A stretch of DNA of 40,096 nucleotides from an uncultured SAR116 cluster alpha proteobacterium (GTDB lineage: Bacteria > Pseudomonadota > Alphaproteobacteria > Puniceispirillales > Marisalimonadaceae): the NCBI GenBank assembly GCA_902539895.1, contig CACBMD010000013.1:1-40096 (forward strand), read 5' to 3'. Below, piece after piece: positions 3,794-37,723 of this stretch; within the stretch, counting starts at the first letter, position 1, and each line of letters begins with the position of its first letter. The position numbers and the translations under genes were made by a program. The notes beneath the pieces are model-generated. The model was not told the origin of the DNA. It did not search any database and saw nothing but the letters and a program-made list of their open reading frames with translations.

Positions 3794-3893
3794 AATCATA
3801 ACTCCATGTGATGTTAAAAGTATGTGAACATCGCTTAGTGAGAAAAATTATCATTGCTACGCTCTAATATTCACAAAAAGCTGTTCATAAATA

Positions 3894-4091: not shown

Positions 4092-6719
4092 CTAATCGTC
4101 TTTATTCATAGCTTCGAATAAGTTCGTTAAATATTCACCAGTTGATTTTAAACTTGTTACAGTTTGTTCCATACTCGTAAATTGTTGAATATATCTATTT
4201 CTGAGAGATTCCATTTGAGAATTTAAATCAATTAATAATGCTGATTGATCTGTCACTTCTTGATTAATTGTAGTTTCTCTCGTTGCAAGTTGCCCGTTTG
4301 AGGTGTTAAGAGTGTCAGTTAAAAATGAAGTTAGTTTTTCGATCAAACTTTGGCCATAGTAAAGAGTTGCATCTGCACCAAGACCAGAATACTTTACTTT
4401 TAATCCTGCTGCATTTCCTGATGAAATTGTAAAAGTATTATTATTAATATCTGCTGACATTGAAACGCCGTCCAATGTTGCTGAACCTGTAACACCAGTA
4501 GTTGTAATCCCAGCTCCTGTAAAACCTAATGTCACAGATCCTGAGGTGTTAGCTGATGGAGTAATTGATGAAATTGTTTGAAATGTTTTAGAACCAAGAA
4601 CTGTTGCATTAGCCGCTGGTCCTGTAATAACTTCAGTTTGAGCGTTACCAGATAAATCAGTTCCAACAACAGTGAAAGTTTTACCACTCTCATCACCGCC
4701 AACACTTACGATTGATGGTCGTTTTCCTGTAAGATCAACAAAAGCTGATTTTGTACCTATATTTACTGCTGAAGCGCCTGCATTTGAAGAAATTTGTGTA
4801 ATGTCTTTAAAAATTTTTGTACCAACAACAGTATTTCCAGCTGTAGGACCAGTTATAGTTTCAGTTTGAGATGTCCCATTAATATCTGTGCCTGTAATGG
4901 TGAATGTTACTGATGATAAATTATTTGAACTTCCTATAGTTACAAATGAATTTAAATCAGTAGCTGATCTAGGACTTGTTGAAGTTGTTTGTGCACCATC
5001 AAGTGTAAAATTACCTGAACTACCAAGAGTTTCATTATCAACTAATCCATCAGGATCGGTTGCTGTAACTGACGCTCCATTTAGAGTTAAAGCGGTACTG
5101 GCAGTTCCAGTTTGAGATGTTCCAATATTATCTGCATCAGTTGAGCCTACAAACTTAAGAAACCCGTCAAGATTACTTCCTATTGCATTTATAACCATCG
5201 AAGATGATGAACCAATAGATCCTGACTTAATTGAATAGCTACCATTGGCATGAGTGACAATTACTGATTTCCCAGCCCCACTTAATGTACTGTCTGCATT
5301 TATTGCTGTTTGAATAGCTGTAGCAAGTGCTGCTTCAGAAGTATAATGAGCTGCAGGAACGGTTACTGATCCTGACTGAGTGCCATCAACAGTTATCTGA
5401 ATAGTATTATTAGAGGCAGTTACTTCTGGAGATGTGTCATTACTTACAAGGCCAGTAAAAGCACCTGATACATATGCTGTCATTTGAAATGCATAAGACC
5501 CTGCAACAGGTTTAGAGTTTGTACCCCCACTTACAGATAATAAACTTGAAGAAGAAGAATACATTGAATTAAAAATAGCATCTAATGATGTAGGGTTATT
5601 TTTTAATTCATTTTCTAATACAGTAGTATTGAGACTTAGTAATCCATCTTTTTCAGTTCTAACACCTAAATTAGAAAGATATACACCATTTGCACCAAAT
5701 CCTGTTAGTTGCGACGAAGTAAGAGATTTTAGTCGATTTTGAATACTGTTAACTACCGGATCATCAGATAATTCACCAGCCTCTTCTGAGGCTGATCCTC
5801 TAAAAGTTTTTTCGTTTAACAATGTTCTTGCATCATTAACTGCAGTTACAAAAGTTTGTAAGTTAGTTGTTGCAGAGGTTGTATCTACAGAGCCAGTTAA
5901 ATTTGCTGGAGTATCTACTCCATTAGATGATGTAGATGCAAGTAAATTTACATCATAACCCGTAAAAAGATCTGAAATATTATTTGATGACCTAGTTAAT
6001 GAAATACCATCAACGGTAAAAGAAGCATCAGTTCCAGCAACTTTTTGTTTTGATCCATTCGTTGACGTATTATCAATAGTAGCTAACCCTGATCCTGAGG
6101 GACTTTCTGTAGCTGTAACTCTTAACGCATTTTCTTTTCCGTTCTGTGATTTTAAAACAAGTGTATATGTATCGTCACCTGCGCCTAAAACACTTGCTGT
6201 TACACCATAGTTAAGTGCATTTATTTTATCCTTCAGTGATTCTAAAGTATCAGTTTCTGTAACTGTAAGTGTTTTTGACGTTACAGTTGAACTAGCAACG
6301 AAACTTCCTGACGACCAATCTCCTCTCTCTAAAACCAAACTTCCTGCGCCAACAAGTGAAGTATTTGATGCGTAATCTTCAAAAGCTAATGTTTGTCCTT
6401 TTGCAAGTGATGAGATGCTTATACTAGAATTTATAGCTACCGCGGTAGACGGATCTGAGATAGTTGCACTTACTGCTGAACTAGTTGAGCTTACTTTTAA
6501 AGAAGTGTTCCCAGTTAGAGTATTTAAAGACGTAGAAAGTTTAGATAAAGCACTTTTTATCTCACCAATTGCAGAAATAGCAGTATTTCTAGCATCAATT
6601 TTAGACTGAATTTGGTTTTCTTGAGGGACCTGTTCAGCTTGTACAAGACTATCAACAATTTGGGTTATATTTAAACCACTACCACCTTGATTAATTGCAC
6701 TTAAATAATCTACAGCCAT
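4092..6719 (-). CDS. fliD: Flagellar filament cap protein FliD, enlarged
   Basis: FliD caps the filament and folds flagellin subunits at the tip. The N-terminus has the family pattern (GLNITQIVDSLVQAEQVP, then a helix with KIDARNTAISAIGEIKSALS). The C-terminus has the typical end: a DTLNTSNGQLATRETTIN region, then a long helix ending in RYIQQFTSMEQTVTSLKSTG. The protein is 875 residues, nearly twice the usual 450 to 500. The extra sequence sits in the outer domains and includes two tandem type I modules shared with FlgK and flagellin. The gene lies just upstream of flagellin on the same strand but has its own sigma54-type promoter. FliS, usually next to fliD, is here beyond the CLC gene on the opposite strand. 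Confidence 0.95.
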   Translation of the reverse strand: MAVDYLSAINQGGSGLNITQIVDSLVQAEQVPQENQIQSKIDARNTAISAIGEIKSALSKLSTSLNTLTGNTSLKVSSTSSAVSATISDPSTAVAINSSISISSLAKGQTLAFEDYASNTSLVGAGSLVLERGDWSSGSFVASSTVTSKTLTVTETDTLESLKDKINALNYGVTASVLGAGDDTYTLVLKSQNGKENALRVTATESPSGSGLATIDNTSTNGSKQKVAGTDASFTVDGISLTRSSNNISDLFTGYDVNLLASTSSNGVDTPANLTGSVDTTSATTNLQTFVTAVNDARTLLNEKTFRGSASEEAGELSDDPVVNSIQNRLKSLTSSQLTGFGANGVYLSNLGVRTEKDGLLSLNTTVLENELKNNPTSLDAIFNSMYSSSSSLLSVSGGTNSKPVAGSYAFQMTAYVSGAFTGLVSNDTSPEVTASNNTIQITVDGTQSGSVTVPAAHYTSEAALATAIQTAINADSTLSGAGKSVIVTHANGSYSIKSGSIGSSSSMVINAIGSNLDGFLKFVGSTDADNIGTSQTGTASTALTLNGASVTATDPDGLVDNETLGSSGNFTLDGAQTTSTSPRSATDLNSFVTIGSSNNLSSVTFTITGTDINGTSQTETITGPTAGNTVVGTKIFKDITQISSNAGASAVNIGTKSAFVDLTGKRPSIVSVGGDESGKTFTVVGTDLSGNAQTEVITGPAANATVLGSKTFQTISSITPSANTSGSVTLGFTGAGITTTGVTGSATLDGVSMSADINNNTFTISSGNAAGLKVKYSGLGADATLYYGQSLIEKLTSFLTDTLNTSNGQLATRETTINQEVTDQSALLIDLNSQMESLRNRYIQQFTSMEQTVTSLKSTGEYLTNLFEAMNKDD
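4512..4920 (-). repeat. Two tandem type I repeat modules in FliD
   Basis: In protein order: VTFTITGTDINGTSQTETI, GNTVVGTKIFKDITQI, VNIGT (about 4741-4920); then KTFTVVGTDLSGNAQTEVI, ATVLGSKTFQTISSI, VTLGF (about 4512-4700). They share most core residues with each other and with the FlgK copies. A leader block with DGLVDNETLGSSGNFTLDG precedes the first. Confidence 0.8.
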
Positions 6720-6780: not shown

Positions 6781-6873
6781 TTTAATTAAGAAAATTTTCT
6801 TGGATTAATAAATTTCAATTAATTTAAAATGACAATCAATTAAAATTATGTAGTAATTCTATTGGAGCTCATA

Positions 6874-8586
6874 ATGTTTAAAAAAATAAACATAAAAGAG
6901 ATTAGAGAAAGCTTAGCTTTATTAGTTATTGCAGCAATAGTTGGCACTATTATTTCTTTTGTTGCGCAACTTTTTATTATTAGCGCAAAAAATATATATG
7001 ATTTCTTATTTAATAATGAAAATTTTATAGTATTAGTCGATATTGGAAATTTATCACTTAATTTGGTTCCATTATTGATATGTGTCCCAAGTTCTCTTTT
7101 AGTTGGACTGTTAATGTATAAACTCAAACTACCAAGATGGTTTGGTCCTGCTGATACAATTTATGCTGCACATCACCATGCAGGTATTTTAGATTTAAAA
7201 GGTGGTTTTGGATCAACATTAGCATCATTTATATCAATAAGTGGCGGTGCTTCAGTAGGTATTTATGGTCCTCTTGTACATTTTGGTGCAACTGTTTCAT
7301 CATATATTAGACGACAAAAATTTATACCTAAAATTCCTCATGATATCATTATTGGTAGTGGTGTTGCGGCGGCTATTTCTGCAGGATTTGGCGCTCCTTT
7401 AGCAGGTATAATTTTTGCTCATGAAACTGTATTAAGACATTTTTCTATGAAGGCAGTTGCTGCTCTAGCAATTTCATCAATGGCAGCCAATTTTTCTGCA
7501 ACAGAAATTGGAATCGTCAGCCCTCCACTTCTACTTACTGCTATTCCTTTTGATATGGGTGATATAATAATAAGCCTAGGGATTATTGGCCCATTAGCTG
7601 CAATTGTAGCAATACTTTTTATGAAACTAGTACTATTTACGGGTACCATTCCAACCAAAATTAATATTAAAAATTGGCAAGCTCCAATAATTGCTGGATT
7701 TGCTTGTGGAATATGTGGAATGGTTTTTAGTGAAGTTTTAGGTTTGGGCACTGATATTTTAATGTCTGTTATAACAAGCCAGTTATTATTCGGATATCTC
7801 TTTGCTCTTTTGCTAGGAAAATTAATCCTAACTTCAATTTGTGTAGGATTTGGTTTTTTTGGTGGATTATTCTCGCCTGCTCTTTTTTTGGGAGGAGTTT
7901 TAGGCGCAATAGTATTTCAATTGCCAGTCACATCAGCAAATCCAGATCTACTTTCTGTACTTGCAGTCTCAGGAATGGCAGCTGTATCTAGCTCAGTAAT
8001 TGGAGCACCTTTAACTGCTATAATTTTAGTTCTAGAACTTACTGGATCTTATGAATATGCAATAGCTGCAACTTTCCCAATTGTAGTTTGTTCTTTCATA
8101 ACTAGTAGAATTTTTGCAAATAGCGTGTTTGACAAACAGCTTATTTCAAGAGGAGTTAAAATTACAAAAGGTCGAGAACAAATTCGCTTAAATGAAGCTT
8201 TGATAAAAAATTATGTTGATAGTCAATATACAAAATTGAAACTTACAACATCTCCAGAAAACGCTATCAAATTATTAACTAAATCTAATACAACTGAAGG
8301 ATATATAGTATCAGATGAAAACAAATATATCGGTAAGATCAGTCTATTAAATTTAATTAATAAAAAAAGTTCTAAACTAGAAGATTTAGTAGAAAAAAAG
8401 CCTTTAATTATAGATCCAAATTCAAACTTAATTTTTGTAATAAAAAAATTATCGAAGTTTGTCGGTGAAAGCATACCAATTGTTAATAAGAAAAATAACG
8501 AAATGATTGGCATAATATCAGAAAATGACGTTTTAAAAGCATATCTTGATATTTCTGAAGAAATTAATCAGATAGAAAAACATTAA
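6874..8586 (+). CDS. CLC-family chloride channel/transporter with C-terminal CBS domains
   Basis: This is a 570-residue membrane protein of the CLC family, which moves chloride or related anions through a double-barrelled dimer. Recognisable parts are the helix-F region GGASVGIYGPLVHFGA, the helix-H region SAGFGAPLAGIIFAHE, the helix-N region VGFGFFGGLFSPALFLGG, and two CBS motifs at about residues 440-565 (KYIGKISLLNLIN; NNEMIGIISENDVLKAYL). The gating glutamate of the GREGP motif is Tyr131 (GIYGP), and the residue matching the inner proton glutamate of H+/Cl- exchangers is Thr185. Both losses are more like a channel than an exchanger. The start is the ATG at 6874, with TTGGAG 6 bases upstream; an in-frame TTG at 6862 lies inside that ribosome site. 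It is an unexpected neighbour between fliD and fliS, and no link to motility is evident. Confidence 0.93.
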   Translation: MFKKINIKEIRESLALLVIAAIVGTIISFVAQLFIISAKNIYDFLFNNENFIVLVDIGNLSLNLVPLLICVPSSLLVGLLMYKLKLPRWFGPADTIYAAHHHAGILDLKGGFGSTLASFISISGGASVGIYGPLVHFGATVSSYIRRQKFIPKIPHDIIIGSGVAAAISAGFGAPLAGIIFAHETVLRHFSMKAVAALAISSMAANFSATEIGIVSPPLLLTAIPFDMGDIIISLGIIGPLAAIVAILFMKLVLFTGTIPTKINIKNWQAPIIAGFACGICGMVFSEVLGLGTDILMSVITSQLLFGYLFALLLGKLILTSICVGFGFFGGLFSPALFLGGVLGAIVFQLPVTSANPDLLSVLAVSGMAAVSSSVIGAPLTAIILVLELTGSYEYAIAATFPIVVCSFITSRIFANSVFDKQLISRGVKITKGREQIRLNEALIKNYVDSQYTKLKLTTSPENAIKLLTKSNTTEGYIVSDENKYIGKISLLNLINKKSSKLEDLVEKKPLIIDPNSNLIFVIKKLSKFVGESIPIVNKKNNEMIGIISENDVLKAYLDISEEINQIEKH

Positions 8587-9616: not shown

Positions 9617-10897
9617 TTATCTTAAATAATCAAATAAATTAAGTTGTGAAATTTTTACAAATGATTGCTGACTTGCCTGCATAGACGTCAACATACTTTG
9701 TAAGTTAGTAACTAAAGCTGCAAGATCTGCATCCTTTAAATCACTTACATCTTTTTCAACCCCTAATCTTCGGTTAGCTAAAAGCTCTACTTGTCTTTCA
9801 AGAGAGTTAGTTCTAGCTCCAATTTCACCTCTATTATTTGCAATATGTACCTGAGTTGAAGCTACATTATCAAGTTGTTTTGACGGTAATTGATCATTGT
9901 CATATAACTTCTGAACACCACCTATGTTGTTTCCAATTCCATCTGTAGGTTGAACTTTAAAAAATGAAGAAGGATCTTTTTGTGCAGTGTCAATCCCGTA
10001 AACTGAAAGATTCTTGATTTCCATTGGACCGTTAACTGAATCAGTTAATTTAATTGTTTTTCCATCATCCATAATTGTTGCATCAACCCCAGTATTGCCA
10101 ATATTAATTTGTCTTACAAACTCTGCAGGATCTTCGCCTGTAATTTCAGCTGTAATTGTTGCTGTACCCAAATTTCCTGTTAAATCAAAAGTCCATGTGC
10201 CAGGGTTTTTATTCTCAAAAGTAAGTTCTGCTACACCTGTTGATTTAACTGAATCGACACCTCCAGAAGCCGTCCTTATTGAATAGCTAATATCTTCTAA
10301 CATTTGGAAAATTGAAACATTCTCTCCTGATGGTCCCTTTACAGCTTGAAATAAAGTTCCACCATCAAGAGTTGTTTCCATCACTCTTGACTCAGAAATT
10401 GATAAAGATGCTATACCCCTATCTCCTTTGTAATTTATTTTGCCAGTTAGATCTTTTACAAAAGGAATAGTATTTGTTTTGTAGCCACTGAATAAAAAAC
10501 TTCCATTACTATCTTGTGCATTAGCTAAACTTAATATTTCTTCTTTCATCTGATCAACTTCAATAGCAATTGCTTCTCTATCTGATGCACCTAAAACGTC
10601 ACTTGAAGCCTGGATGATCAATTCCTGAACTCTTATAAAAACATTTGATAAGTTTTCTAAATTTTTATCTATTAATGATAATCTATCATCAGCTGAATTT
10701 ACGTTTCTCTCATATTGTTCAATTTGCTTTTTAACAACATTTAGGCCTGATAACTCAACAGATCCAACTGGATCATCTGAAGCCCTTAAAATATTTTCAC
10801 CAGTAGCAATTTTATTCTGAAGATCTTGAAGTTCTTCAGTTGTTGATGAAAATTGTTTTAATTGCTGTTGATTAAATAATTTTGAACTAATCTGCAT
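9617..10897 (-). CDS. flgL: Flagellar hook-filament junction protein FlgL (HAP3)
   Basis: FlgL forms the outer of two adaptor rings between hook and filament. The N-terminus has the flagellin-like pattern of the family (LQDLQNKIATGENILRASDD, then ANSADD-type motif NVNSADDRLSLIDKNLENLS). The C-terminus ends as FlgL does, with a helix containing DLKDADLAALVTNLQSMLTS and then ISQLNLFDYLR. At 426 residues it is close to normal size. Unlike its partner FlgK and the flagellin it caps onto, it shows no type I or II repeats, so the expansion is selective. It is the last gene of the flgG-L run and starts 18 bases after flgK. Confidence 0.95.
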   Translation of the reverse strand: MQISSKLFNQQQLKQFSSTTEELQDLQNKIATGENILRASDDPVGSVELSGLNVVKKQIEQYERNVNSADDRLSLIDKNLENLSNVFIRVQELIIQASSDVLGASDREAIAIEVDQMKEEILSLANAQDSNGSFLFSGYKTNTIPFVKDLTGKINYKGDRGIASLSISESRVMETTLDGGTLFQAVKGPSGENVSIFQMLEDISYSIRTASGGVDSVKSTGVAELTFENKNPGTWTFDLTGNLGTATITAEITGEDPAEFVRQINIGNTGVDATIMDDGKTIKLTDSVNGPMEIKNLSVYGIDTAQKDPSSFFKVQPTDGIGNNIGGVQKLYDNDQLPSKQLDNVASTQVHIANNRGEIGARTNSLERQVELLANRRLGVEKDVSDLKDADLAALVTNLQSMLTSMQASQQSFVKISQLNLFDYLR

Positions 10898-10915: not shown

Positions 10916-13900
10916 CTAAACAACCTCTATTAGAGATTGGAACATTTCTTTAGCAGTTTGCAAAATTCGTGCCGAAGCTTGATATGCTTGTTGAAACTCG
11001 AGTAAGTGTGCAGCTTCTTCATCAAGATTAACTCCAGCAAATTCACTTTGACTTGCCTCTGCTGCATCTAATGTGCTTGATGCTGAATCGAGAGATAACT
11101 TACTTGCTTGAACATTTGATCCTACTTTAGCAACAGTAGTATTAAAAATTTCTTGAAAATTTCCTTTATTGCCACCTGATTTGTCTGACCCTTGAAGACC
11201 TAAAATATTTACAATGTTTCTGTTGTCTCCAAAACCATCCTTATTACTTGAAAAATCAAAGCTATTATTAACTATAGTCTCATCAGAGAATTGAAATTTC
11301 GTATTATTTATTTCAAAAACTCTGTTAACGTCTAAAATTCTTGATGCGATCGAATGACCAGAAACTTTATCAAAAATTTCAACTTTATTCTTATTTGACG
11401 AATCTACCTTAATTGTAAGTTCAGGTATATCTTCTGTATATTCGCTCTCTGAAAATTTATCATATTCAGCACTAATTTTTCTAGCACCACCTCCCATAAC
11501 AAAGGTAATCAAATCCTCTGGTGGTAAATTTGTTAAACTTATTTTTTCTGCAACTGAATTTTGAATTGAACCAGATGGTACATCAACTTTTACTGGCTCA
11601 CCTGAGAACGATGAAACCTTAAGACTATCATTATCAATAACAGCTCTAATGTTTTGAGTTTTTAAGCCATATACAAAATCGGCATTAGGACTGCTTTCAA
11701 TTTTAAAGTCAACTTTATCAATAGTATTGCTTAATGATAATCTACCAACTTTTTGAGTACCTACCTTTACTGTTGAAGCAGATGCACTTGTAGGCACTAT
11801 AGATGAAATCTGAGTAAATACTTTGGTTCCTGTTACAATTTCATTAGCTGCTTTTGCAGTTAAAACTTCAGTTTGTGCGTTACCAAATTGATCCAAACCT
11901 GTAATTGTATATTTTTCTCCAACATCAGAACCTGCTGGTGTGATTGTAATTACCTGTGGCTCCATAACTACCTGAGTTGCTTGTATTCCAACCTTAATAG
12001 TACTTGCTGAATTGTTGGCGACAGTAATAGATGAAATTTCATTAAAAGAAATTGTACCAGTTACTGTAGAGTTGTTACCTCCAGAAATTGTCTCAGTTTT
12101 AAAAACACCAGATGTATCGTAACCTGAAACCACAAAAGAGTTACTTTCTTCATTTCCATTACAAAAAATGGTTACTTTGCCATTTAATGATTTAGATTTT
12201 GCCAAGGCCCCTTCTAAATATAAATTACCTGCTGTAACTGATTGACTTGTTAACAGACCATCATCGTCAGTGGTAGATAAAATACCATCAGTAATTATAC
12301 CAACTCCTGCCGACATATTGCCATTATATATAGAGGCGTCATCAGTCATGCCTGATGTTTCATTCCAAGACATTGTTATAGAACTTGGTGGTGAGCCACT
12401 AAGTGCTGATCCATCACTATTGAAAAATACTGGAACTTTTTTACTATCAAATTTTACAGTATAATTTGACTTTACATTGTTTTCAGTAACTTCAATACCA
12501 ATTGCTGGACTAGATGTTGTGGGTTGAACAACAAAATTTCCAAGCATTGTTGTTGTTCCTTCTTTTAAACCAAAAGTTTCAGCATTAGCAGTATTCGCGG
12601 TATTAGAAACTAATTTAAATTGAGCACCTTCAATTGTACCTTCTGCTGTTGCTATAAGCTCATATCCAGGTGCTGTTCCAATTTCAACGTTACCTGTAGT
12701 ATTTGAAGCTGGAGTAATTGAGTGGATTGTTTTAAATAAACCTGAAGATACAACAGTTTTTCCAGAATTTGGCCCAAAAATAGTTTCAGTTTTACTTAAT
12801 CCATCTGTACCTGTACCAACTATTGTAAATGAATTACTACTTTCATCTGCAGTGGCAGTAATAGACATTCTTGTGCCTAGTGATGAAACAAAGGCAGGTG
12901 TAGTTCCAATTTCAACATCGCCATGGTCACCATTAACTCTTATCTCAGTAACTGTTTTAAAAACTTTAGTTCCTGTATTGGTTGCATTCTGCCCATTCAC
13001 ACCATTAATTTCATCAGTTATTAGATTACCGTCTAGATCAGTACCAGTAATAGTGATTTTAAAAGCAGTATTATCATCGTTGTCGGTATTTTTAATTGTT
13101 ATTCTAGAATTAAGAGATGTGCTATCTTTTAGTGCTCCAGTAAGTGGAATTACCGGAAAATTAGCATTTGATGGGTCTGGATTCATATCTTGAACAATCC
13201 CATCACTATCTGCTGCTGTAGAATTTAAGCCATTAATAGTTAGGGGTGTTGCTGCAGTACCAGTCTGGGATACTGCAATCAAATTATTTATATTTTCTGA
13301 TGTTCCATTAAAGCGTGCTTTAATTCTATTTGTTTCAGGTCCCTCAACAATCAATTCTCCAGACGCCATTTTAAGAGTATAGACTTGTCCTTCAAAACTT
13401 AAATCTACAGATTTTCCATCTTGAGGTAGTGCATTAAGCACAACACTTTTTACTTGAGATGTTGGCGTTTGAGATCTAAGTGATGTAAGCAATGCAGTAG
13501 AAATTTCTTTTTGTGTATCAATGTTTAATGCATTTGCATCGATGGTTGTGTTCCAATTTCCGTCAGCTGCTTTAGTTCCAATCTTAATTTGTCCATTACT
13601 AGTACCTGAAGAGTTTATAGATGTAACAGACTTAAAAATATTGGTTGTAGTTACAACACCACCATTTGATCCAGCTATTCTTTCTGAAATAACTTCGTTA
13701 TTCAGACCCAACCCAGCAATCACAAACGTTGTACCCGTTGTATCTTCTCTACTCTTAATTTGAATTTTTGCTCCAAGATAATTAGACGTGCGCAATACAC
13801 CATTCATTGAAATGGCACCTGAAGAAAAATTTGTTAATTGAACCAAGCTATCATCGTCATTAATATCATTATGACCAATTGTTCCAATATTTATATTACC

Positions 13901-16900
13901 ACCTGGTCTAACAGTAGAGCTTATAGAACTTATAGTAGTAAATTTTGTAGAACCTTCAACTGTATTGGCTACTGTTCCAATCTTAATGTTGCCACTTGCA
14001 GTAACTGAAGTCGTAATTGAAGATATGGTTTTAAATTTTTTTGTACCTTCAGCTGTATTATTAGCTGTCGCACCTTTAATTTGTTCAGTAATAATAGTAC
14101 CATCTGCGTTTTTTCCAGTCACTGTAAATATATTTCCGCTTTCATCCGCAGAGGAGAAAATGGTTACAGCTGCATTTATATTGTTGACACCTACACCACT
14201 TAAAGAACCATTAAGTGAAATAGCACCTGCAGAACCAGGATTTCCTAAAGTGAATAAGCTATCATCATCAATAGATCTCGCACCTGTAATTTGTTCTGTA
14301 ATAGTTGAACCATTTGAGTTTGTTCCAGTAACAGTAAATATGTTTGCGCTTTCATCCGCAGAACAATAAATGGTTACAACTGCATTTAAATCATTAGCAT
14401 CTTTTAATGCTCCATCAAGTGTAATAGTTCCCGAAGAATTAGGTCTCTTTGAGGTGAACAAACTATCATTATCACTCACGAATAATTTATAATCTTTTTG
14501 ATTTAAATCAATTCCATACTTTGATAAACCAACAATAGCCTTTTTACCATTAGGAGATCCAAGACTATTATCTAAGTCATCAAAGATCTCGGGTTTAACA
14601 GTAACAACTTCGCCTGTTTTACTCCTATCAATATTTATATATCCATTAGTTAATGAGTCTATAACTGCTACTTTAGAAACTCCTGAATTTATTTGTGTTG
14701 TAAAAGTTTCACTAGATGTAAATTTTATCTCACCCTTGATATTTGCTGATACTTTCTTTGTATTACTAATGTCTATTAATAATTTTGAATTTAATTGAGA
14801 GTCGTTTTCACTAAATTTTTCAAAATCTTTTCCAAATCCTTCAAGATAAAAATCTGAGGGTGCAGTTATATTTTTTAAATTAATGTCATATCCATCTTTA
14901 GATTCAATGATTATTTTCTTAAAATCAGACGTAACTGTTGCTAATAAACCTGTCTGTGAAGAATACTCATTAATTCTTTTTGCAAGTGCTGAAATATCGC
15001 TGGCATCGATACTTGCGTTGATTGATACTGCATCAGAGTTTTTACCCTTTAAATCGAATGTTATTGCGCCACTAACACCATCATCAAACGGACCAAGTAA
15101 AACTCTTGTATTTGCTGATACATTTACTCCAGTACCCGCTAACTCGGTATTTAATTTATTAGCTAAATAAAAAGCACTAGAACCCACGGGTACATTTGTA
15201 GTTTTTTCTATATTATCATCATTAATAACTTTAAGAGTGTAGCCAACAGCTTCTGTTCCTATAGTTATCTTGCCAGCTGAATCACCATCTATACTTATAT
15301 TTCTTACCCTGCTGAAAACTTTACTACCAACTGCTGTAGTTGCATTACCACCAGGAATAGTTTCAGTTTGATATAATCCATCTAAATCATAACCTGTAAC
15401 GGTAAATGTTCTTCCTGATTCATCTTTCTCACATGCAATTGAAATATATGAATTAAGTTCTTTTGAATGTATTTTTGTTCCATCAAGTGTTATAATTCCA
15501 GAAGAAAAATCTTTTATTGAGGCGCCATTTGCGTGTGCTGCTGCTGTAGATGTAAGATTGTTAACTGTTGTTCCCCTAACTACACCTGTAAAAGAAGTTG
15601 CAGTTACGCCAGTATAAGTCACATATTCTGATCCAATTAACAATGTACCAGATGCAGGATATCCTGTTGTACTTGCGACATTAATGGTAGTAGCCGTAGG
15701 GTTTAATGCTTGAGAAATGGTTGTATTTCTATCATGTTTTGCAGCTGTTGTACTACTTACTGCTCTGGTTACCCCAGTAAAAGTTGTTCCTGTTTTACCT
15801 GTGTATGTAAAAAGCTCGTTACCAATTTGAATAGCACCAGCAGAATCAAATGCTGAAGTGTCTGCTACAGTTATTGTTCCTGAACTAGACATGATGTCGC
15901 CACTTCCAATAACTAAATTAACAGCAGCGCTATGTGCATGATTCTCAGCAGTACTACCTTCTTGAGCTCTGGTTACACCTGTTAGATTATTTCCATTGAC
16001 ACCTGTATATGTGAAATATTCAGAACCAATTTTAATTGTTCCTCCGGCACTAGGAAAACCTGTAGTAGACTGAAGTGGTATTTGAGTAACAGCGCTAGTA
16101 CCTAATGTTCCACCAGAGTTATTGTAAGTTGATTCTCCTCCTCTGACAGTGGTTGCAGCAGTATAATTTAATGATGTTTCTCTTAATGTAGTTTCAATCA
16201 ACGATACAGTCTTGGAAGTTAACAAACCATCCATATCTGTTTCTTGTTCATTATAACTAAGGTTTGATCCAAAACTACTTACAAAATCTCCACTTGCTGT
16301 TTTCCTTGTTATGTTTGTGCCTCTATAATTATTGTTTAAATAATCATTTCTATATTCAGCACTCTCTAAAAATCCATTTTCTTTTTTTATTAATGAAGCT
16401 ATTTGTATTGCATTAAGTGATGTTCCTGATACATGCCTACCATCTCTTGTAAAAATCTGTAAATTACTAGCTACTGTTTCACCAGCTGTTAAATTCGTAA
16501 TTGAGGGAGTAAATGAATTACCTTTAGACAAAATTGAAGAACTCTCAATATCTAAAGAAGATGAAGCAATTGTAAGATAACCATTTGATCCAGTGGCAAA
16601 TAAACCTAATTTTTTAAAATCATGTTGACTTTTCCCGTCTAACATTAAACCAGAGTTTAGCAAGTTAGCAAATTCTTCAACTGATCTGATGCCATCTCCA
16701 GGATCTGTTGCTGCAGAACTAATAGTAATTTCTTCATTATTACTACCGTCTGTAAGTTTAATACTAAATGATGAAAAACCTTTGATATCTGCATCTGAAA
16801 TTGTAAATGTAGCTGATGATTGGTTTCCAAGAGAACTTAAATTGATTGATTTAGTCGTTGAAGGAATTGTGGTTACAGGACCGTCTTTTAAAAAAGTTGT

Positions 16901-18331
16901 AGCAACTAGAGGGTTTCCACTAGAGGAAAAAACTTCATCAATAGTAGAAGGATAATCTATAATAGCTTGTGTTGTTGTACCTATAATGTTTAATTCTACA
17001 TTACCTACATTGGATGCACTTTTTGAAACTAAATTTCTTGAAGCAGCTGCAAAATCTTCAGGATTTTGAAGATTAAATTTCATAGCTCCCGCTTTTGTTA
17101 AAGATGGAGATATTTGAAAACCATCACCATCTCGGGGTTGACCAATAATTTCAACTTGAAATCCATTAAAATTAATTTTATTTCCTACAGCCTTAGACAA
17201 ACCCTTGGAGTCTCTTATTTCCCAGTTATTATTTATTTTTGAATAATTAACTAAAATTTTCTCTTGGGTAATTTTACTTGGATCACCCTCAATTATGTTA
17301 AATTTTAATTGTGATTTATTATTAAAGTTAGCTTGTGGTAACATTGAATTCACAGAAAACATAGCTTTTCCAGATTTACCATTTAGATCAATTCCAGAGG
17401 TTTGAATTTCATTTACATCATTTGAAAATTGTTCTGCAAGTTGACTTATTTCGCTACTCACTGAATCAACTAAATTATAGAATTTTGAGATTCCATTTAT
17501 AATTCCAGAAGAAAAAATTCCTGGATTTTTTTTACCACCACCTTCATTTATAACTAATGAAACATTTTTATCATCAAACGAAGATGAAATGGTTGAGCCT
17601 TTAGCTCTGTTGACTAAAAAAGCACCATTACCTGAGTCACCCAGTCTTACTATTGCCTCCCCCGTACCTGCATAATCAACAGTAAAATTTAAAAGTTTTG
17701 ATAAATCTATAAGCAACTTGTCTCTTGCATCCAAGACATCGTTTGATGCTTCACTTGAACCACTAGTGGCAATTAGTTTATTTATTTCTACCAACTGATT
17801 TATATATAAGTTAGCTTCTTCTATTTTGATGTCGATTTGCTTTATTGAGTTTGATTTAAAATTTTTAAATTGATTATCATAATTATTAAATGCAGAAGCC
17901 AGTGCTTTACCAGCTTCTAATGATACTGTTCTTGCAGAAATACTATCAGGATTACTTGCTACGTCTTGAAGAGTATCAAAAAATCTACCTATAAAGACAC
18001 CTAAATCACTTCCTGAGGGTAATAACATATTTTCTAAGTCACTCAGCTTAGAAACGAAATCATTTAACATTTCATAATCAGATTGTGAGGTTCTCGTTTT
18101 ATCTGCAAGATAAGCGTCAAACGATCTGCGAACATTAGTAACCCTGACACCCAATCCTGAGTTATCTGAAACGTTTGTTGGTCCACCTGTTACGCCAGCA
18201 ACTTCACTTATATCTGCACTTCTTTTATTGTATCCATCAGTGTTTATGTTAGCAATATTCTGACCTGTTACTGATAAAGCCTGTCTATATGCTTGAACAC
18301 CTGTTTTTCCAATTTCAAATAAGGAGGCCAT
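10916..18331 (-). CDS. flgK: Giant hook-associated protein FlgK (HAP1)
   Basis: FlgK forms the inner adaptor ring between hook and filament. Its ends are typical: N-terminal TGVQAYRQALSVTGQNIANI, NTDGYNKRSADI, then a long helical D1 to about residue 330; C-terminal ASKLSLDSASSTLDAAEASQ, GVNLDEEAAHLLEFQQAYQA and SARILQTAKEMFQSLIEVV. The protein is 2471 residues, against roughly 450 to 700 commonly, so some 1900 to 2000 residues are inserted in the surface-exposed middle. That insert holds three type II repeats (about residues 744-937) and eight type I modules (one at about 961-1033, seven at about 1317-2195). No frameshift or stop interrupts the reading frame. The start codon overlaps the flgJ stop as TAATG, with AAGGAGG-like sequence absent; translation may be coupled. 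It is the largest gene in the window. Confidence 0.95.
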   Translation of the reverse strand: MASLFEIGKTGVQAYRQALSVTGQNIANINTDGYNKRSADISEVAGVTGGPTNVSDNSGLGVRVTNVRRSFDAYLADKTRTSQSDYEMLNDFVSKLSDLENMLLPSGSDLGVFIGRFFDTLQDVASNPDSISARTVSLEAGKALASAFNNYDNQFKNFKSNSIKQIDIKIEEANLYINQLVEINKLIATSGSSEASNDVLDARDKLLIDLSKLLNFTVDYAGTGEAIVRLGDSGNGAFLVNRAKGSTISSSFDDKNVSLVINEGGGKKNPGIFSSGIINGISKFYNLVDSVSSEISQLAEQFSNDVNEIQTSGIDLNGKSGKAMFSVNSMLPQANFNNKSQLKFNIIEGDPSKITQEKILVNYSKINNNWEIRDSKGLSKAVGNKINFNGFQVEIIGQPRDGDGFQISPSLTKAGAMKFNLQNPEDFAAASRNLVSKSASNVGNVELNIIGTTTQAIIDYPSTIDEVFSSSGNPLVATTFLKDGPVTTIPSTTKSINLSSLGNQSSATFTISDADIKGFSSFSIKLTDGSNNEEITISSAATDPGDGIRSVEEFANLLNSGLMLDGKSQHDFKKLGLFATGSNGYLTIASSSLDIESSSILSKGNSFTPSITNLTAGETVASNLQIFTRDGRHVSGTSLNAIQIASLIKKENGFLESAEYRNDYLNNNYRGTNITRKTASGDFVSSFGSNLSYNEQETDMDGLLTSKTVSLIETTLRETSLNYTAATTVRGGESTYNNSGGTLGTSAVTQIPLQSTTGFPSAGGTIKIGSEYFTYTGVNGNNLTGVTRAQEGSTAENHAHSAAVNLVIGSGDIMSSSGTITVADTSAFDSAGAIQIGNELFTYTGKTGTTFTGVTRAVSSTTAAKHDRNTTISQALNPTATTINVASTTGYPASGTLLIGSEYVTYTGVTATSFTGVVRGTTVNNLTSTAAAHANGASIKDFSSGIITLDGTKIHSKELNSYISIACEKDESGRTFTVTGYDLDGLYQTETIPGGNATTAVGSKVFSRVRNISIDGDSAGKITIGTEAVGYTLKVINDDNIEKTTNVPVGSSAFYLANKLNTELAGTGVNVSANTRVLLGPFDDGVSGAITFDLKGKNSDAVSINASIDASDISALAKRINEYSSQTGLLATVTSDFKKIIIESKDGYDINLKNITAPSDFYLEGFGKDFEKFSENDSQLNSKLLIDISNTKKVSANIKGEIKFTSSETFTTQINSGVSKVAVIDSLTNGYINIDRSKTGEVVTVKPEIFDDLDNSLGSPNGKKAIVGLSKYGIDLNQKDYKLFVSDNDSLFTSKRPNSSGTITLDGALKDANDLNAVVTIYCSADESANIFTVTGTNSNGSTITEQITGARSIDDDSLFTLGNPGSAGAISLNGSLSGVGVNNINAAVTIFSSADESGNIFTVTGKNADGTIITEQIKGATANNTAEGTKKFKTISSITTSVTASGNIKIGTVANTVEGSTKFTTISSISSTVRPGGNINIGTIGHNDINDDDSLVQLTNFSSGAISMNGVLRTSNYLGAKIQIKSREDTTGTTFVIAGLGLNNEVISERIAGSNGGVVTTTNIFKSVTSINSSGTSNGQIKIGTKAADGNWNTTIDANALNIDTQKEISTALLTSLRSQTPTSQVKSVVLNALPQDGKSVDLSFEGQVYTLKMASGELIVEGPETNRIKARFNGTSENINNLIAVSQTGTAATPLTINGLNSTAADSDGIVQDMNPDPSNANFPVIPLTGALKDSTSLNSRITIKNTDNDDNTAFKITITGTDLDGNLITDEINGVNGQNATNTGTKVFKTVTEIRVNGDHGDVEIGTTPAFVSSLGTRMSITATADESSNSFTIVGTGTDGLSKTETIFGPNSGKTVVSSGLFKTIHSITPASNTTGNVEIGTAPGYELIATAEGTIEGAQFKLVSNTANTANAETFGLKEGTTTMLGNFVVQPTTSSPAIGIEVTENNVKSNYTVKFDSKKVPVFFNSDGSALSGSPPSSITMSWNETSGMTDDASIYNGNMSAGVGIITDGILSTTDDDGLLTSQSVTAGNLYLEGALAKSKSLNGKVTIFCNGNEESNSFVVSGYDTSGVFKTETISGGNNSTVTGTISFNEISSITVANNSASTIKVGIQATQVVMEPQVITITPAGSDVGEKYTITGLDQFGNAQTEVLTAKAANEIVTGTKVFTQISSIVPTSASASTVKVGTQKVGRLSLSNTIDKVDFKIESSPNADFVYGLKTQNIRAVIDNDSLKVSSFSGEPVKVDVPSGSIQNSVAEKISLTNLPPEDLITFVMGGGARKISAEYDKFSESEYTEDIPELTIKVDSSNKNKVEIFDKVSGHSIASRILDVNRVFEINNTKFQFSDETIVNNSFDFSSNKDGFGDNRNIVNILGLQGSDKSGGNKGNFQEIFNTTVAKVGSNVQASKLSLDSASSTLDAAEASQSEFAGVNLDEEAAHLLEFQQAYQASARILQTAKEMFQSLIEVV
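11745..14385 (-). repeat. Seven type I repeat modules in FlgK
   Basis: Modules of about 75 to 110 residues at roughly 14210-14385, 13935-14180, 13560-13790, 12890-13110, 12660-12880, 11975-12170 and 11745-11955. The shared core is DESxxxFTVTGxDxxGxxxTExI, then TVxGTKxFKxIxxI, then GxIxIGT. Many are preceded by a DDDGL...GAISLxGAL block. The first is cut short, and the second has a partial inner duplication of its second half. Copies are clearly diverged. Boundaries are approximate. Confidence 0.8.
15230..15450 (-). repeat. Isolated type I module in FlgK
   Basis: ESGRTFTVTGYDLDGLYQTE, then TAVGSKVFSRVRNI, then GKITIGTEA. It directly follows the type II block in the protein and is separated from the other seven modules by unrelated sequence. 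Confidence 0.75.
15515..16100 (-). repeat. Three type II repeats in FlgK
   Basis: In protein order: TTGFPSAGGTIKIGSEYFTY then TGVTRAQEGSTAENH; TSAFDSAGAIQIGNELFTYT then TGVTRAVSSTTAAKH; TTGYPASGTLLIGSEYVTYT then TGVVRGT...TAAAH. Each is about 60 residues. The same repeat occurs three times in FlgE. From memory it resembles a repeat common in cyanophage and pelagiphage tail proteins. Confidence 0.82.
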
Positions 18332-18663
18332 TATTTATCCTTTTTTGGATGCACATGAGGCTGAAATTGTTTTATTAATGCCTCAGCAATACCAAAGTTA
18401 TTCTTTTTGGATAAAATTTCTGAATACTCCATATCAAGCATATTGTTGAATGTATCTTGTGCTTCAGAACTAAATATTCCTTCGGCTAACTTACTTTGCC
18501 TTGCTTGTTTAAGCATTTGATAAACAAAAATAGACTCAAACTGATCAGCAACAATTCCTAAATCATTATTAATATGCTTTTGTAATAAATTGATCTTCTT
18601 TTCATCTACAGATTTTGTAGCTAAATGACTAATTTGATTGACTTTAGATAATGAATTATCCAT
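18331..18663 (-). CDS. flgJ: Rod-binding protein FlgJ, N-terminal domain only
   Basis: A 110-residue protein matching the rod-binding domain of FlgJ, which caps the growing rod. The conserved block is present: ADQFESIFVYQMLKQARQSK, then a short loop and AQDTFNNMLDMEYSEILSKK, then FGIAEALIKQ. The C-terminal muramidase domain found in enteric FlgJ is absent, as in many alphaproteobacteria and others that use a separate lytic enzyme; none is visible in the window. AAAGGATGAG precedes the ATG. The stop codon overlaps the flgK start. Confidence 0.92.
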   Translation of the reverse strand: MDNSLSKVNQISHLATKSVDEKKINLLQKHINNDLGIVADQFESIFVYQMLKQARQSKLAEGIFSSEAQDTFNNMLDMEYSEILSKKNNFGIAEALIKQFQPHVHPKKDK

Positions 18664-22121: not shown

Positions 22122-25100
22122 TTATGTTCTGATTTGAATAATCGCTTGTGTTAGACTTGTGTTAGTTTCAATTGTTTTAGCATTCGCTTGGAAGTTTCTT
22201 TGCGCAGTAATTAAGTTAACTAACTCTTCAGTAATATCAACATTTGATCTTTCTAAAGAACCAGATAAAATTGTACCATAACCATCTGCTCCAGCTTCTC
22301 CAACTGCAGCAACACCTGAAACTGAAGTTTCAACATATGTTGCGTTACCGATTTGCTTCAATCCGTTTTGGTTATTAAAATTAACCATAACCAATCTTCC
22401 AAGGGCAATGTTCAAACCATTAGTATAGTTAGCACTAACTAATCCGTTAGCAGCAATGTCCAAACCATCTAACTTACCAACTGTTTGTCCATCTTGGGTA
22501 ACCGTCCTAACATTAAAGTCAGATGCAAATTGAGTTGATCCATCAAAATCTAGATCTAAATCAATCGACAGAGCATTAGTACCTGCTGCTGCGTCTGCTG
22601 CAAAGTCACCTTTATAATTCACTTTTTGTGTAGGACTAACTAAGTTACCTTGAGTATCAAAAGTTAATTCTCCTGGTCTCAAAAATACTTTTGCAAAAGT
22701 ACCATCAGTAGTTGGTGTCCATGCATTATCTGGTGCTAGAGTTGTTGTTGTTCCAGCATCATTCACATACAAAGACTGACCAGTATCTGATTTAGCAATT
22801 GTATTAGCCATATTAACAAATGAGGGTGTAGTACCTGTTTGCAGTTCAAGATCATTTAATCCCATACGAGAACTTGCTGATACAAATATTTTACTATTTA
22901 AACCAGTTGTTCCTGTAGTAAATGTAAATGAATTGCTTGTTGTATTATATACTACAGTTACACCGTTAACAGTGTTACCTGAGGAATCTTCCATCTGATT
23001 AATTCTTGATTGCAATGCTGTTGCCAAAGAGGTTCCGTTATATACTCCTTCAGGTACTTTAATAGCAGCAGTTATATCATTTACGTTTACAACAAAAATT
23101 GTTTCTTCAGCGGCGTCTGATAAAAAGAAATCTTCAGACAAATCTTCGTTTGAAGTTTTTCCATTTAAAACTGCAGCTTCTGATTGTAAACCTTTACCAG
23201 AAGTGTCTGCAGTAACAGTGGTAATTTCGTTAGTAGCATTTATTCCTAGTAAAGCACTTGTACCACCAATACCTGCAGCAGAAGCTGTTGCAACGCCATC
23301 TACTATTGCCAATCTTCCAATTTCTATATTTGATGAGGCCTGACCAGCATCACCAACACCTACAGCAGAGTTTGCAGGTATATTTTCACCGGTAGTTCCA
23401 CTGGCAATGCTAAATTTTCTAGTCAGGTTGTTATAAGATACTTCTACACCAAAAGCTTGCTGAGTATCTGCAGCAATCTGGTCACCAGTAAATAAAACTG
23501 ATTCAGCTTTTAAAACTGCACCACCGCCAATATTTGATGATGCCTTATTACTTAACGTTTTTAAACCAATAGCGTTCGCACCACTACCTTCACCTGGTCC
23601 ATATGCTGAAAATGAAAACATTTTGCTTGAAGTAGATGTACCAATTTTTGAAGGAATGCCCTGTAAAGTAAAGTTTTGTCCAGATATATCATAAGCTATT
23701 CTTAATGCTGGGTCATCTTCATCTACCCAGTCATCAGAGTTAGAAATTTCTTGTGTAATAACAGTATCATTTGTGTGACTAGCCGCAGTCGTTCCCGCCA
23801 CACCTCTTGTTAAGCCTGTAAAGCTTGTTGCGGTTTTACCCGTATATGCAATCACCTCATTATCTATTCTTATAAAACCACTATCCTCAAAATCTGCAGT
23901 AGAATCTACAGTAATAGTTGTAGCTGTAGCATTTACATCGGTATTAACGTCAGTTGTTCTATTAGATAATCCTAGATTTACTACACTATCATACAAACTT
24001 ACGGTAGCTCCAACTGCAAGTGCCTTACTTTCGCTATTGTCAACACTTCGAGTGATACCGGTAAGAGTTGTAGCAGTTTTTCCAGTGTAGGTAATAATCT
24101 CATCGCCAAGCTTAATTTTTCCTGGGGCATCAGCCGTTGCGTCAGAAAATCCTGCTGTTGATCCAACATTTAACACTTCAGAATCTGCCGGTAGAAAAGA
24201 AATTGAGGTATCATCTGCTATAGCAGCAGTCGTAGCTGCACTTATAGTTATTGTATTTCCATTAACGTTTGTAACTGTAGTACCAGCAGTTACGCCGGCA
24301 ACTTCAACAATGTCACCTACTGAGATATTTGTGTTAGCATCTACTACAATGGTAGTTGCTCCAGCAGCTACTGCACCATCATTAAGAACTTGAGCACCTA
24401 AACCATCAGCGTCAACAAAATTTATCTCATCACCATTAATATCACCACCATTTACTGTTGTAGCTGCGTCCTTTGATAAAGTAATTACATTACCATTAAT
24501 TGCTGATACAGTTGTCGCTGTATCAATATTAGTTCCGTATACAGAATCTCCTACTGAGATGCCCGTTACATCTGCAACAGTAAGGCTTCGTCGATTTGCT
24601 GAATAATCAAGAGTTCCAGTAGTATGACTACTCGACAAAAATGTAACTTTAGTTCCAGCAACGGTTGCCGTTGTTGCTGTAAGGGCTGCAGTTGTATTGG
24701 CACTTAAAGTTACAGTAGAAGTACTATGATTAATGACAGTAACCCTTGTATTAGCTGGTATACCAGCACCAACAACCATGTCACCTACTCTAACACCTTT
24801 AGTTCCTCCATCTACAACTAAAGAATTAGTGCCAGCTCCTGCTGCACCTGTAGTTTCTCTAATTATATTTGTTGCTACAGTGGTTGATGTATTTCTTAAA
24901 ATATCCTTAAAACCACTCATAATACCATCCGTAAAAGTTAATAACTTTATTGAGGCATCATCAAGATGTGCAGCAGCAACAGTACTATTAGCACCTCTTG
25001 TTATTCCAGTAAAAGTTGTTGCAGTAGTTCCAGTATATGTTATTTGCTCTGTTCCAATCAATAAGGTACCAGATGTTGGAAATCCTGCTGTTGTGTCTAC

Positions 25101-29824: not shown

Positions 29825-30100
29825 TTAAGATTTTGACTTAGAAAATGAAGCTAATAGATTTGCTTTGGGTAAAATTTTAGTTTCAAGCATTTCTATTTTA
29901 TATAATATATTATTAAATATATTAGTATATTCTTGAGAAGATTTATTTATCTTAAGCGTTTCTTTATTAGATTTTAATTCCATTAATATTTTTTCAAATT
30001 GGGAATTAACTTCTTTAAACTTCTCGGATGAAAAACGCTTATTATTTATATCATCTAATGCATTAAGTGTTTTATCAAGAATTTCAAGTTTCTGTATCAT
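29825..30100 (-). CDS. flgN: Probable FlgN-type chaperone
   Basis: A 91-residue, entirely helical protein (IQKLEILDKTLNALDDINNK, FEKILMELKSNKETLKINKS). FlgN binds the C-termini of FlgK and FlgL and delivers them to the export gate. The call rests mainly on position: it starts 13 bases after flgM, the classical flgM-flgN pair, and size and helix content fit. Sequence identity to known FlgN is not obvious to me, and it is shorter than enteric FlgN (about 140). If correct, it must chaperone a 2471-residue FlgK. No good ribosome site is seen before the ATG. Confidence 0.6.
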   Translation of the reverse strand: MIQKLEILDKTLNALDDINNKRFSSEKFKEVNSQFEKILMELKSNKETLKINKSSQEYTNIFNNILYKIEMLETKILPKANLLASFSKSKS

Positions 30101-30113
30101 AACATGCCGATTT

Positions 30114-30407
30114 TTAAGATTTCATTTCTCTATAAGCTTGCATAAGTGCATCAGACAATTTGTCTAAATCCAAAGGATACTTGCCACTTGAAATAGCTTC
30201 TTTAATTTTTGCAACCTTATCGACATCTATTGGAGCGGATTGAGCCATTTCTGTTACTAACTTTTTAGTATCCTTAATGTCGACTACATTAGAAGACATA
30301 CTTTTATCTGATGTAACTATATCCACCTTATCAATATCAGATGGATTTGAGTCCTTAACATCTTTTTTAGGTATGTTATTTAATATATTATTTGTTATTT
30401 TATCCAT
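30114..30407 (-). CDS. flgM: Anti-sigma28 factor FlgM
   Basis: FlgM binds and inhibits FliA until the hook is complete and is then exported. The 97-residue product has the normal disordered, Asp/Lys/Ser-rich N-terminus. Its C-terminal conserved region is VDVDKVAKIKEAISSGKYPL-like: the sequence reads DVDKVAKIKEAISSGKYPLD, then KLSDALMQAYREM. The ATG at 30405-30407 is chosen because GGAG lies 9 bases upstream; an in-frame GTG at 30422 lies upstream of that ribosome site. A weak FliA-type site precedes it, which would give the usual autoregulatory loop with the fliA gene at 37724. Confidence 0.92.
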   Translation of the reverse strand: MDKITNNILNNIPKKDVKDSNPSDIDKVDIVTSDKSMSSNVVDIKDTKKLVTEMAQSAPIDVDKVAKIKEAISSGKYPLDLDKLSDALMQAYREMKS

Positions 30408-30429
30408 TTTACTTAACTCCACAGTATAA

Positions 30430-30456
30430 ATAACGACAACTTGTTAAATTATTTTA
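30430..30456 (-). promoter_or_regulatory. Possible sigma28 promoter of flgM
   Basis: On the minus strand TAAA (overlapping the flgA stop) is followed after 15 bases by GTCGTTAT. This fits TAAA-N15-GCCGATAA at core positions and resembles the GTCGTATT box before 28899. It lies 23 bases upstream of the flgM start. Confidence 0.45.
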
Positions 30457-31200
30457 GCGAAAAATTTTAATTTTTTTATCTTTTTTAATATAACCTTTAA
30501 TTATCTTACCGCTTTTTAAATTTTTGACTTTAATTAAATCTCCCAAGTTACCAGAATCCTGGGCTTCACCTGATACAGTAACCGAAACATTACCAAGATT
30601 TGAAACTATTGAAATAACATCTCCATTATTAATATCAAAACTCTCAAACAAATGCCTAGGATGCAAAATCTGTCCCATTTTCAGATTTGTTTTCAATTTT
30701 CGCCCAACTAAATCCTTTTTATTGGAAAAAAAAGATGTTTGATGTTTTTTTTCTGTTGAAACAATTTCAAGATCGTCCAATTCTAAAATATCATTTTTTT
30801 CTACTGATTTTTTTAATTTTATGATTTTAAGTAATTTACTTTTCTTTTTTGGTATTTTATTTTTAATAGTGGTTTTAAACACCACATCAGGTTTAGTTGT
30901 CTTTTTATTTTTATCATTTTTTAGAGTTCGCACTCTCATTATTAACTTAAACCCATTTATATCTGAACAATTGACTTTTATAGTGTTGTAATTTTGAAAT
31001 ATCTTTTTTATTTCAATTTCATTATTACAATCTTTATAAAAAGAGTTCTTTGAAAAAATTGGAGTTCCTTTAATACCCTCCTTAATTAACCATTCAGAAA
31101 CTTTTGTAGAAATTTCTTCCCCAGAAATTGCAATTACCTGTTTATTTATTATTGAAATAAAAATAAACAATAAAAAAATTTTTGTTATTATTTTAAACAT
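30454..31200 (-). CDS. flgA: P-ring assembly chaperone FlgA
   Basis: FlgA is the periplasmic chaperone for P-ring formation by FlgI. The 248-residue product has a signal peptide (to about residue 22) and the C-terminal SAF/FlgA domain: a KKSVEKNDILELDDLEI segment, KKDLVGRKLKTNLKMGQILH, RHLFESFDINNGDVISIVSN and SVTVSGEAQDSGNLGDLIKV, followed by NLKSGKIIKGYI. The N-terminal half is Lys-rich. The start is the ATG at 31200 with GGAGG 7 bases upstream; a TTG one codon earlier is less well spaced. It starts just after the LysM gene. Confidence 0.93.
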   Translation of the reverse strand: MFKIITKIFLLFIFISIINKQVIAISGEEISTKVSEWLIKEGIKGTPIFSKNSFYKDCNNEIEIKKIFQNYNTIKVNCSDINGFKLIMRVRTLKNDKNKKTTKPDVVFKTTIKNKIPKKKSKLLKIIKLKKSVEKNDILELDDLEIVSTEKKHQTSFFSNKKDLVGRKLKTNLKMGQILHPRHLFESFDINNGDVISIVSNLGNVSVTVSGEAQDSGNLGDLIKVKNLKSGKIIKGYIKKDKKIKIFR

Positions 31201-31203
31201 CAA

Positions 31204-31644: not shown

Positions 31645-31648
31645 TGTA

Positions 31649-32803: not shown

Positions 32804-32812
32804 TATATATTA

Positions 32813-33334: not shown

Positions 33335-33369
33335 TCAACGCTCCTGAATAAATTATTTCGAAACATTTA

Positions 33370-33385
33370 TGCAGAATACATGCCA
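33370..33385 (-). promoter_or_regulatory. sigma54 promoter of the flgP run
   Basis: On the minus strand the site reads TGGCATGTATTCTGCA, with exact GG-GC spacing. It is divergent to the flhA site at 33453 in the same 227-base gap. Confidence 0.72.
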
Positions 33386-33452
33386 ACAATATTATTAATT
33401 TTTTATTGAATAATAAGAAAACACAATAATGTTTGTTTATAATTATTATTCT

Positions 33453-33469
33453 TGGCATTCTTTTTGCTT
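33453..33469 (+). promoter_or_regulatory. sigma54 promoter of flhA
   Basis: TTGGCATTC then TTTTTGCTT, with exact 12-base GG-GC spacing. It lies about 95 bases before flhA. It probably drives flhA-flhF-flhG-fliA, so that FliA itself is made under sigma54 control. Confidence 0.75.
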
Positions 33470-33561
33470 CCTCATTATTCGATTATTATTATAAAACTCA
33501 AATTAAATAACCTATTGTTTTTATTGTATAATTTATTTGAGCTAAAAATTAAGGAGATGTC

Positions 33562-35682: not shown

Positions 35683-35709
35683 ATAAATTAAAAAATCACG
35701 GAGAAAAAA

Positions 35710-36903: not shown

Positions 36904-36923
36904 ATTTAATATTGGAATTATTT

Positions 36924-37700: not shown

Positions 37701-37723
37701 AATATTATGATGAAAGTATCAAT

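Follow-up and report, generated by a model that had tools for sequence, protein, structure and literature searches.

The window analysed here, a stretch of 40,096 nucleotides from an uncultured SAR116 cluster alphaproteobacterium, carries a single intact gene for the hook-filament junction protein FlgK, whose product, at 2471 aa, has about four times the normal length. We consider it probable, at roughly 70 %, that this product is a genuine FlgK which retains its whole core and bears a chain of ~1930 aa of surface modules drawn from a pool common to the axial proteins, and that it is part of a decorated flagellar exterior in which a changing surface is beneficial.

The flgK gene and its insert

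The gene is a single open frame on the minus strand (the plus strand of the same interval contains 204 stops), and the flg operon has the order flgJ-flgK-flgL, the ATG of flgK sharing 1 base with the flgJ stop codon. In a Pfam scan the N-terminal part matches Flg_bb_rod and FlgK_D1 (PF22638, 7e-45, residues 96-325) and the C-terminus matches Flg_bbr_C; these are present in place of Flagellin_N and Flagellin_C, which are absent. The whole protein scores 242.6 bits against the NCBIfam model TIGR02492 (flgK_ends), for which the cut-off is 170.75. Residues 1-441 and 449-552 of Salmonella FlgK (9go6, 553 aa) align co-linearly with residues 1-434 and 2366-2470 of the window protein, and a GDNRN motif lies 104 residues before its C-terminal end. 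Since Salmonella FlgK is matched over nearly its whole length, the window protein is, as judged from this alignment, a complete FlgK with no standard part missing and with ~1930 aa added at a single site on the return from D2 to the C-terminal D1. The preliminary description had proposed, with no strand given, a FlgK of 2471 residues with intact N- and C-terminal axial domains in one open 7.4 kb frame; the frame, the profile scores and the near-full-length Salmonella alignment bear this out. The gene, its parts and its neighbours are as follows.

9617-10897, minus strand: flgL, 426 aa, not enlarged (Pfam, NCBIfam)
10916-18331, minus strand: flgK, 2471 aa, intact (open frame; Pfam and NCBIfam profile scores)
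10916-11236, minus strand: FlgK C-terminal core, residues 2366-2471 (D1-C, D0-C) plus stop (Salmonella alignment; GDNRN motif)
11237-17029, minus strand: insert, residues 435-2365 (~1930 aa), predicted outer β modules (between Salmonella FlgK residues 441 and 449)
17030-18331, minus strand: FlgK core, residues 1-434 (D0-N, D1, D2), aligned to Salmonella FlgK 1-441
18331-18663, minus strand: flgJ, rod-binding domain only, 110 aa (Pfam)

Protein profile searches resolve two families of diverged modules in the insert, eight copies of A (~70-115 aa) and three of B (~65 aa), with identities to the first copy within FlgK of 29-41 % for A and 39-43 % for B. Together they cover roughly half of the insert, the remainder being made up of other predicted β domains. 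The 1900-2000 residues of β-type repeats expected from the preliminary description are thus right as to length and as to the presence of repeats, but the array is not uniform and also holds predicted flagellin-type D2/D3 domains and a phage-tail-like module.

16481-16831, minus strand: putative flagellin/FliD D2-like domain, residues ~501-617 (AlphaFold model m28bf0f7c61b7, model residues 68-184)
14642-16303, minus strand: predicted discontinuous flagellin D2/D3-like unit, residues 677-693 plus 1066-1230 (AlphaFold model compared with FliC)
15506-16204, minus strand: sub-clade-specific 233-aa insertion, residues 710-942 (B1-B3 block), precisely missing in FlgK of other congeners
15497-16105, minus strand: B modules 1-3, residues 743-945 (profile matches)
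15200-15514, minus strand: A module 1 (profile matches)
14273-14488, minus strand: A module 2, N-terminal part only (profile matches)
13958-14278, minus strand: A module 3, residues ~1353-1454, present or absent among congeners (profile matches; congener alignment)
13544-13876, minus strand: A module 4 (profile matches)
12884-13225, minus strand: A module 5, residues 1710-1818, missing in several relatives (profile matches; congener alignment)
12629-12889, minus strand: A module 6 (profile matches)
11954-12283, minus strand: A module 7 (profile matches)
11714-11956, minus strand: A module 8 (profile matches)

AlphaFold models of residues 434-1459 and 1460-2420 have mean pLDDT values of 57 and 74, respectively; the B modules are poorly modelled in the former, and weight is placed only on its better parts, the flagellin-like domains. 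With moderate confidence, residues ~501-617 resemble the D2 domain of flagellin and FliD (Z 6.6-7.5 against Vibrio cholerae flagellins, ~6.3 against FliD). The predicted D2/D3-like unit matches Pseudomonas aeruginosa FliC both in VIA (8sug, Z 13.6, 205 residues aligned) and in Foldseek (8erm, TMt 0.70, prob 1.00); B1-B3 and A1 are nested between its two sequence parts, the split point being approximate and taken from the model. Residues 241-356 of a flagellin from the same genome are 33 % identical to FlgK 1050-1155, and there is a Flagellin_IN match, under its cut-off, at FlgK 1091-1146, so that the sequence agrees with the modelled flagellin-like fold. Attempts to assign a fold to the A modules were set aside: the matches of the 1460-2420 model are generic β sandwiches with Z below 7, and those in a viral library are full-length noise or short unnamed phage proteins.

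FlgK length and selection among relatives

FlgK_D1 was found above its cut-off in 34 of the 61 genomes of the genus and order, where complete frames encode 1199-2474 aa. The same range, with a median of 1789 aa, is seen in 69 complete FlgKs from SAR116 and other marine alphaproteobacteria, a sample selected by similarity to the window FlgK that includes named loci and from which contigs recognised as duplicates were removed. A GDNRN-type motif lies 100-106 residues from the end in 66 of these (the pattern missed the motif in the other three), and the variation in length among relatives is upstream of it, the C-terminal core being fixed in length. Across the class, sampled evenly with 389 genomes, the FlgK_D1 frames among the matches listed are mostly 450-910 aa, with few longer than 1000 aa (1186-1785 aa) outside this order; the best-scoring matches of a phylum sample include no FlgK frame above 914 aa. 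We note that five genomes from other families of the class (G066, G136, G172, G329 and G357) have FlgK frames of 1408-1785 aa, and that the first three also encode FlgE proteins of 1254-1539 aa, so that a giant FlgE can accompany a giant FlgK in other orders too.

Purifying selection acts on the insert. By a simple counting method, in which synonymous sites are close to saturation in distant pairs, its dN/dS is 0.22-0.24 when the two nearest relatives are compared and 0.12-0.17 for other close congeners; the N-terminal core has 0.04-0.07. Over the C-terminal 81 residues, close congeners share 95-100 % identity.

Assemblers can be misled by repeats, and the genome to which the window belongs is incomplete and in many contigs (1.44 Mb, 71 contigs, 69 % complete), which would favour an assembly artefact, a gene fusion or a pseudogene, with no single 2471-aa gene behind it. 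We reject this explanation and give it next to no weight. No DNA-level tandem repeat is reported in flgK, and the gene is therefore not an assembly-prone array; genes for FlgKs of 2469-2474 aa are present in three other genomes, three single-contig genomes (2.59-2.75 Mb) encode FlgKs of 1199, 1402 and 1620 aa, and dN/dS is well under 1. Comparison with related genomes, which the preliminary description had proposed as a check for a split gene or a repeat artefact, turned up neither, flgK being intact in many independent genomes, some of them in one contig.

Modules shared among axial proteins and with phage tails

In the genome of the window, searches with the alignments of the two families gave 14 matches to A and 9 to B, all in frames of axial proteins. 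The A matches are in FlgK (eight), FliD (two) and two flagellins (two each), and the B matches are in FlgK, FlgE and one flagellin (three each), in a genome that is 69 % complete and from which other carriers could be missing. A 99 % complete relative has A matches in FlgK, in its ~980-aa flagellin and in one further frame, of 678 aa; no A match was obtained in the four genomes of other genera tested. Three of the carriers lie elsewhere in the window.

22122-27236, minus strand: flgE, giant hook protein, 1704 aa, three B modules (Pfam, NCBIfam, B profile)
4092-6719, minus strand: fliD, filament cap protein, 875 aa, two A modules (profile matches)
1010-3799, minus strand: flagellin, 929 aa, two A modules, one of them weak (profile matches)

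Most relatives have a FlgE of 1244-1741 aa, and a few loci have shorter frames; in the class sample most FlgE proteins are 400-650 aa, and some above 1000 aa occur in other families too. In one genome (G025, L043:2634-7328) a break or a sequencing error divides flgE into frames of 400 and 1151 aa, and the adjacent FlgK is intact. There are at least three flagellin genes in one incomplete genome, encoding 664, 978 and 929 aa (L064:199-2193, L064:3494-6430 and window 1010-3799). Within the flagellar cluster, fliD and fliS are separated by a gene for a voltage-gated chloride channel (CLC) that has a CBS domain (window 6862-8586).

Whole blocks of the insert, corresponding to residues 710-942, 1353-1454 and 1710-1818, have been gained or lost among relatives with clean borders, and some relatives have extra blocks of 98-201 aa near residue 1962. 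The first of these, the B block, is present in the FlgK of five genomes of one sub-clade (G000, G003, G012, G014 and G022), and in four of them a flagellin of ~980 aa carries the same three B units in the same order; this copy was not found in G012, an incomplete genome. Neither FlgK nor flagellin has the block in the 13 other congeners searched (FlgK is incomplete in G021, G027 and G030), most of which have weaker B units in FlgE-sized frames only. Phylogenetically this co-occurrence represents one clade and may be a single event. Protein identity between the FlgK and flagellin copies of the block is 79-88 %, and 63-66 % for the flagellin copy of the window's own genome. In G003 the two genes share an identical tract of 118 bp, against at most 65 bp in other FlgK-flagellin pairs, and the flagellin of this genome agrees with FlgK at 20 of the 38 sites private to the latter. 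This suggests within-genome exchange between flgK and flagellin, a lead that comes from one clade and mainly from G003.

The B module is 34-49 % identical over ~70-130 residues to phage proteins (phrog_4406), its relatives including pelagiphage tail tube B, cyanophage baseplate wedge proteins and gp40, a structural protein of Roseobacter phage CRP-902. It thus resembles marine phage tail modules and appears, on sequence comparison, to belong to one family common to the flagellum and phage tails. At least 271 stretches were confirmed in viral contigs from at least 600 candidate pattern matches, and the best 80 of the 271 were retained; the module is common in these contigs (L185-L264).

Modules of the exterior proteins (FlgE, FlgK, FliD and the flagellins) probably form a pool from which FlgK has drawn, with gain, loss and exchange by recombination. 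A more far-reaching version, in which a private recombining pool, some of it sharing its origin with phage tail modules, serves the whole flagellar exterior and the junction and filament gain modules in concert as a changing coat, is possible rather than probable.

The junction ring, alternative explanations and known systems

At the junction, Salmonella and Campylobacter have a single layer of 11 FlgK subunits, which in Salmonella measures ~19 nm across (PMC12221982). The window FlgK would be exported and assembled as usual via its conserved ends, with 11 copies forming the junction ring. The insertion site, on the way back from D2 to the C-terminal D1, is fixed, and the chain should for that reason point outward from the ring. 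If assembled, the inserts would add about 11 × 1930 aa outside the ring, or about 2800 nm3 by our arithmetic (11 × ~1930 aa × 0.13 nm3); we estimate a layer of roughly 30-40 nm in diameter with the inserts packed, and of up to ~65 nm with extended arms. Giant flagellins form filaments of at least 30 nm (PMC6248924), and if the filament is thick here too the junction may be only moderately wider than it. The arms may also cover the neighbouring ring of FlgL, which is not enlarged.

A large collar at the ring of about eleven subunits had been anticipated, and the extra mass does follow if the protein is assembled, but such a collar would not stand alone: the same modules are carried by FlgE (1704 aa), flagellins (929 and 978 aa) and FliD (875 aa). 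We have set the isolated collar aside, since FlgE and FliD have extra modules, the flagellins are large and the modules are common to all. Hook, junction, filament and cap would instead share a thick, decorated exterior, although a uniform coat does not fit with a FlgL of only 426 aa in the neighbouring ring. That modules are common to the whole exterior and turn over between relatives leads us to favour a changing exterior, which might alter exposure to phages or grazers, or else surface and swimming properties; this benefit is the least certain part of the reading.

Export of so long an unfolded chain, and its chaperoning by a very short FlgN-like protein, had both been thought demanding. 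The genes concerned with the latter are in the window.

29825-30100, minus strand: FlgN-like gene by position, 91 aa (directly after flgM)
30114-30422, minus strand: flgM, anti-sigma-28 factor (profile matches)

The 91-aa ORF has no FlgN profile match and its putative identity rests on its position after flgM; it was found in 12 congeners, in one only as a weak, broken match. Flagellar chaperones bind the C-terminal region of their substrate (PMC8527033), and a short FlgN-like protein would for that reason be no paradox. The initial rate of flagellar export measured in Salmonella is ~1700 aa per s (PMC5386592), at which 2471 aa would take about 1.5 s, so that length need pose no special problem. 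Given this rate, C-terminal chaperone binding and the near-invariance of the last 81 residues, export and chaperoning of the giant FlgK would seem to need no new mechanism. The region 30114-38428 further contains flgT, a gene for an LPP20 lipoprotein, flhA, genes for an SRP54-type GTPase (flhF-like) and a ParA/MinD-type ATPase, and one for a sigma-70 factor with regions 2-4 (fliA-like); the flagellar cluster may be of gammaproteobacterial type.

The insert could also have grown with no benefit, modules spreading by recombination among axial genes onto a ring exterior that tolerates them. The frequent clean gain and loss of whole modules, the apparent flgK-flagellin exchange, the very different lengths of inserts at the same place across families and the lack of A in the four tested genomes of other genera would all be compatible with this, but we think it rather unlikely in view of the purifying selection on the insert (dN/dS 0.12-0.24), frames that stay open over 7.4 kb and the large size of all 69 complete FlgKs, the shortest of which is 1199 aa in a sample selected by FlgK similarity.

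We find it improbable that the insert is an adhesin whose 11 arms bind glycans or particles and make the junction an attachment collar near the cell. Long strings of β domains are common in adhesins, there are weak matches to a tandem repeat of a large adhesin (6xi3, Foldseek) and to discoidin- and CBM-like sandwiches (VIA), and B has relatives among phage tail and baseplate proteins; yet these structural matches are below or near β-sandwich noise (Z below 7), no binding site or ligand signature was found in the insert, and hook, cap and filament carry these modules too, which argues against a binding tip specific to the junction. In the Pfam scan of FlgK, no adhesin family scores above its cut-off. 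Processing after export, with full-length FlgK made and the outer chain then cut off to leave an ordinary junction, is compatible with the sequence but very improbable, as the Pfam scan of FlgK shows no protease domain and selection extends over the insert as a whole.

A FlgK with a decorated exterior can be compared with several known systems. It has the flgJ-flgK-flgL order, D0/D1/D2 core and C-terminal motif of canonical FlgK (HAP1), as represented by Salmonella 9go6, by Burkholderia pseudomallei 4ut1 and by the Campylobacter jejuni protein; the solved chains are 553-673 aa against 2471 aa here, and the modular insert of ~1930 aa is without counterpart in them. One insert unit has the same predicted fold as D2/D3 of P. 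aeruginosa FliC (8erm, 8sug), although it lies inside FlgK, is split by other modules and is 16-17 % identical. To marine phage tail and baseplate proteins the likeness is the B motif, and the difference is that a single small module only is involved. No description of a junction protein of comparable size, and nothing useful on SAR116 flagella, was found in the literature searched.

The nearest parallel in architecture is with giant flagellins, in some of which the outer domains are repeated and which form thick filaments in two marine bacteria; FlgK is absent from the main text of that report (PMC6248924). By sequence the window protein is a FlgK and not a giant flagellin, and it is giant-flagellin-like in having a very long outer insert between conserved axial ends, one that extends over several hundred residues and has repeated modules. 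It is more than twice as long as the flagellins of its own genome. Giant flagellins are filament proteins present in thousands of copies, whereas this is a junction protein expected at 11 copies per ring. Since the order includes several single-contig genomes, cultured relatives may be open to structural work, and a further lead is offered by the connection of a flagellar surface module with tail proteins of marine phages. Giant flagellins were already known; a giant FlgK in SAR116 makes it testable how much cargo a junction ring can bear before filament assembly stops, and whether the exterior parts of one organelle exchange domains.
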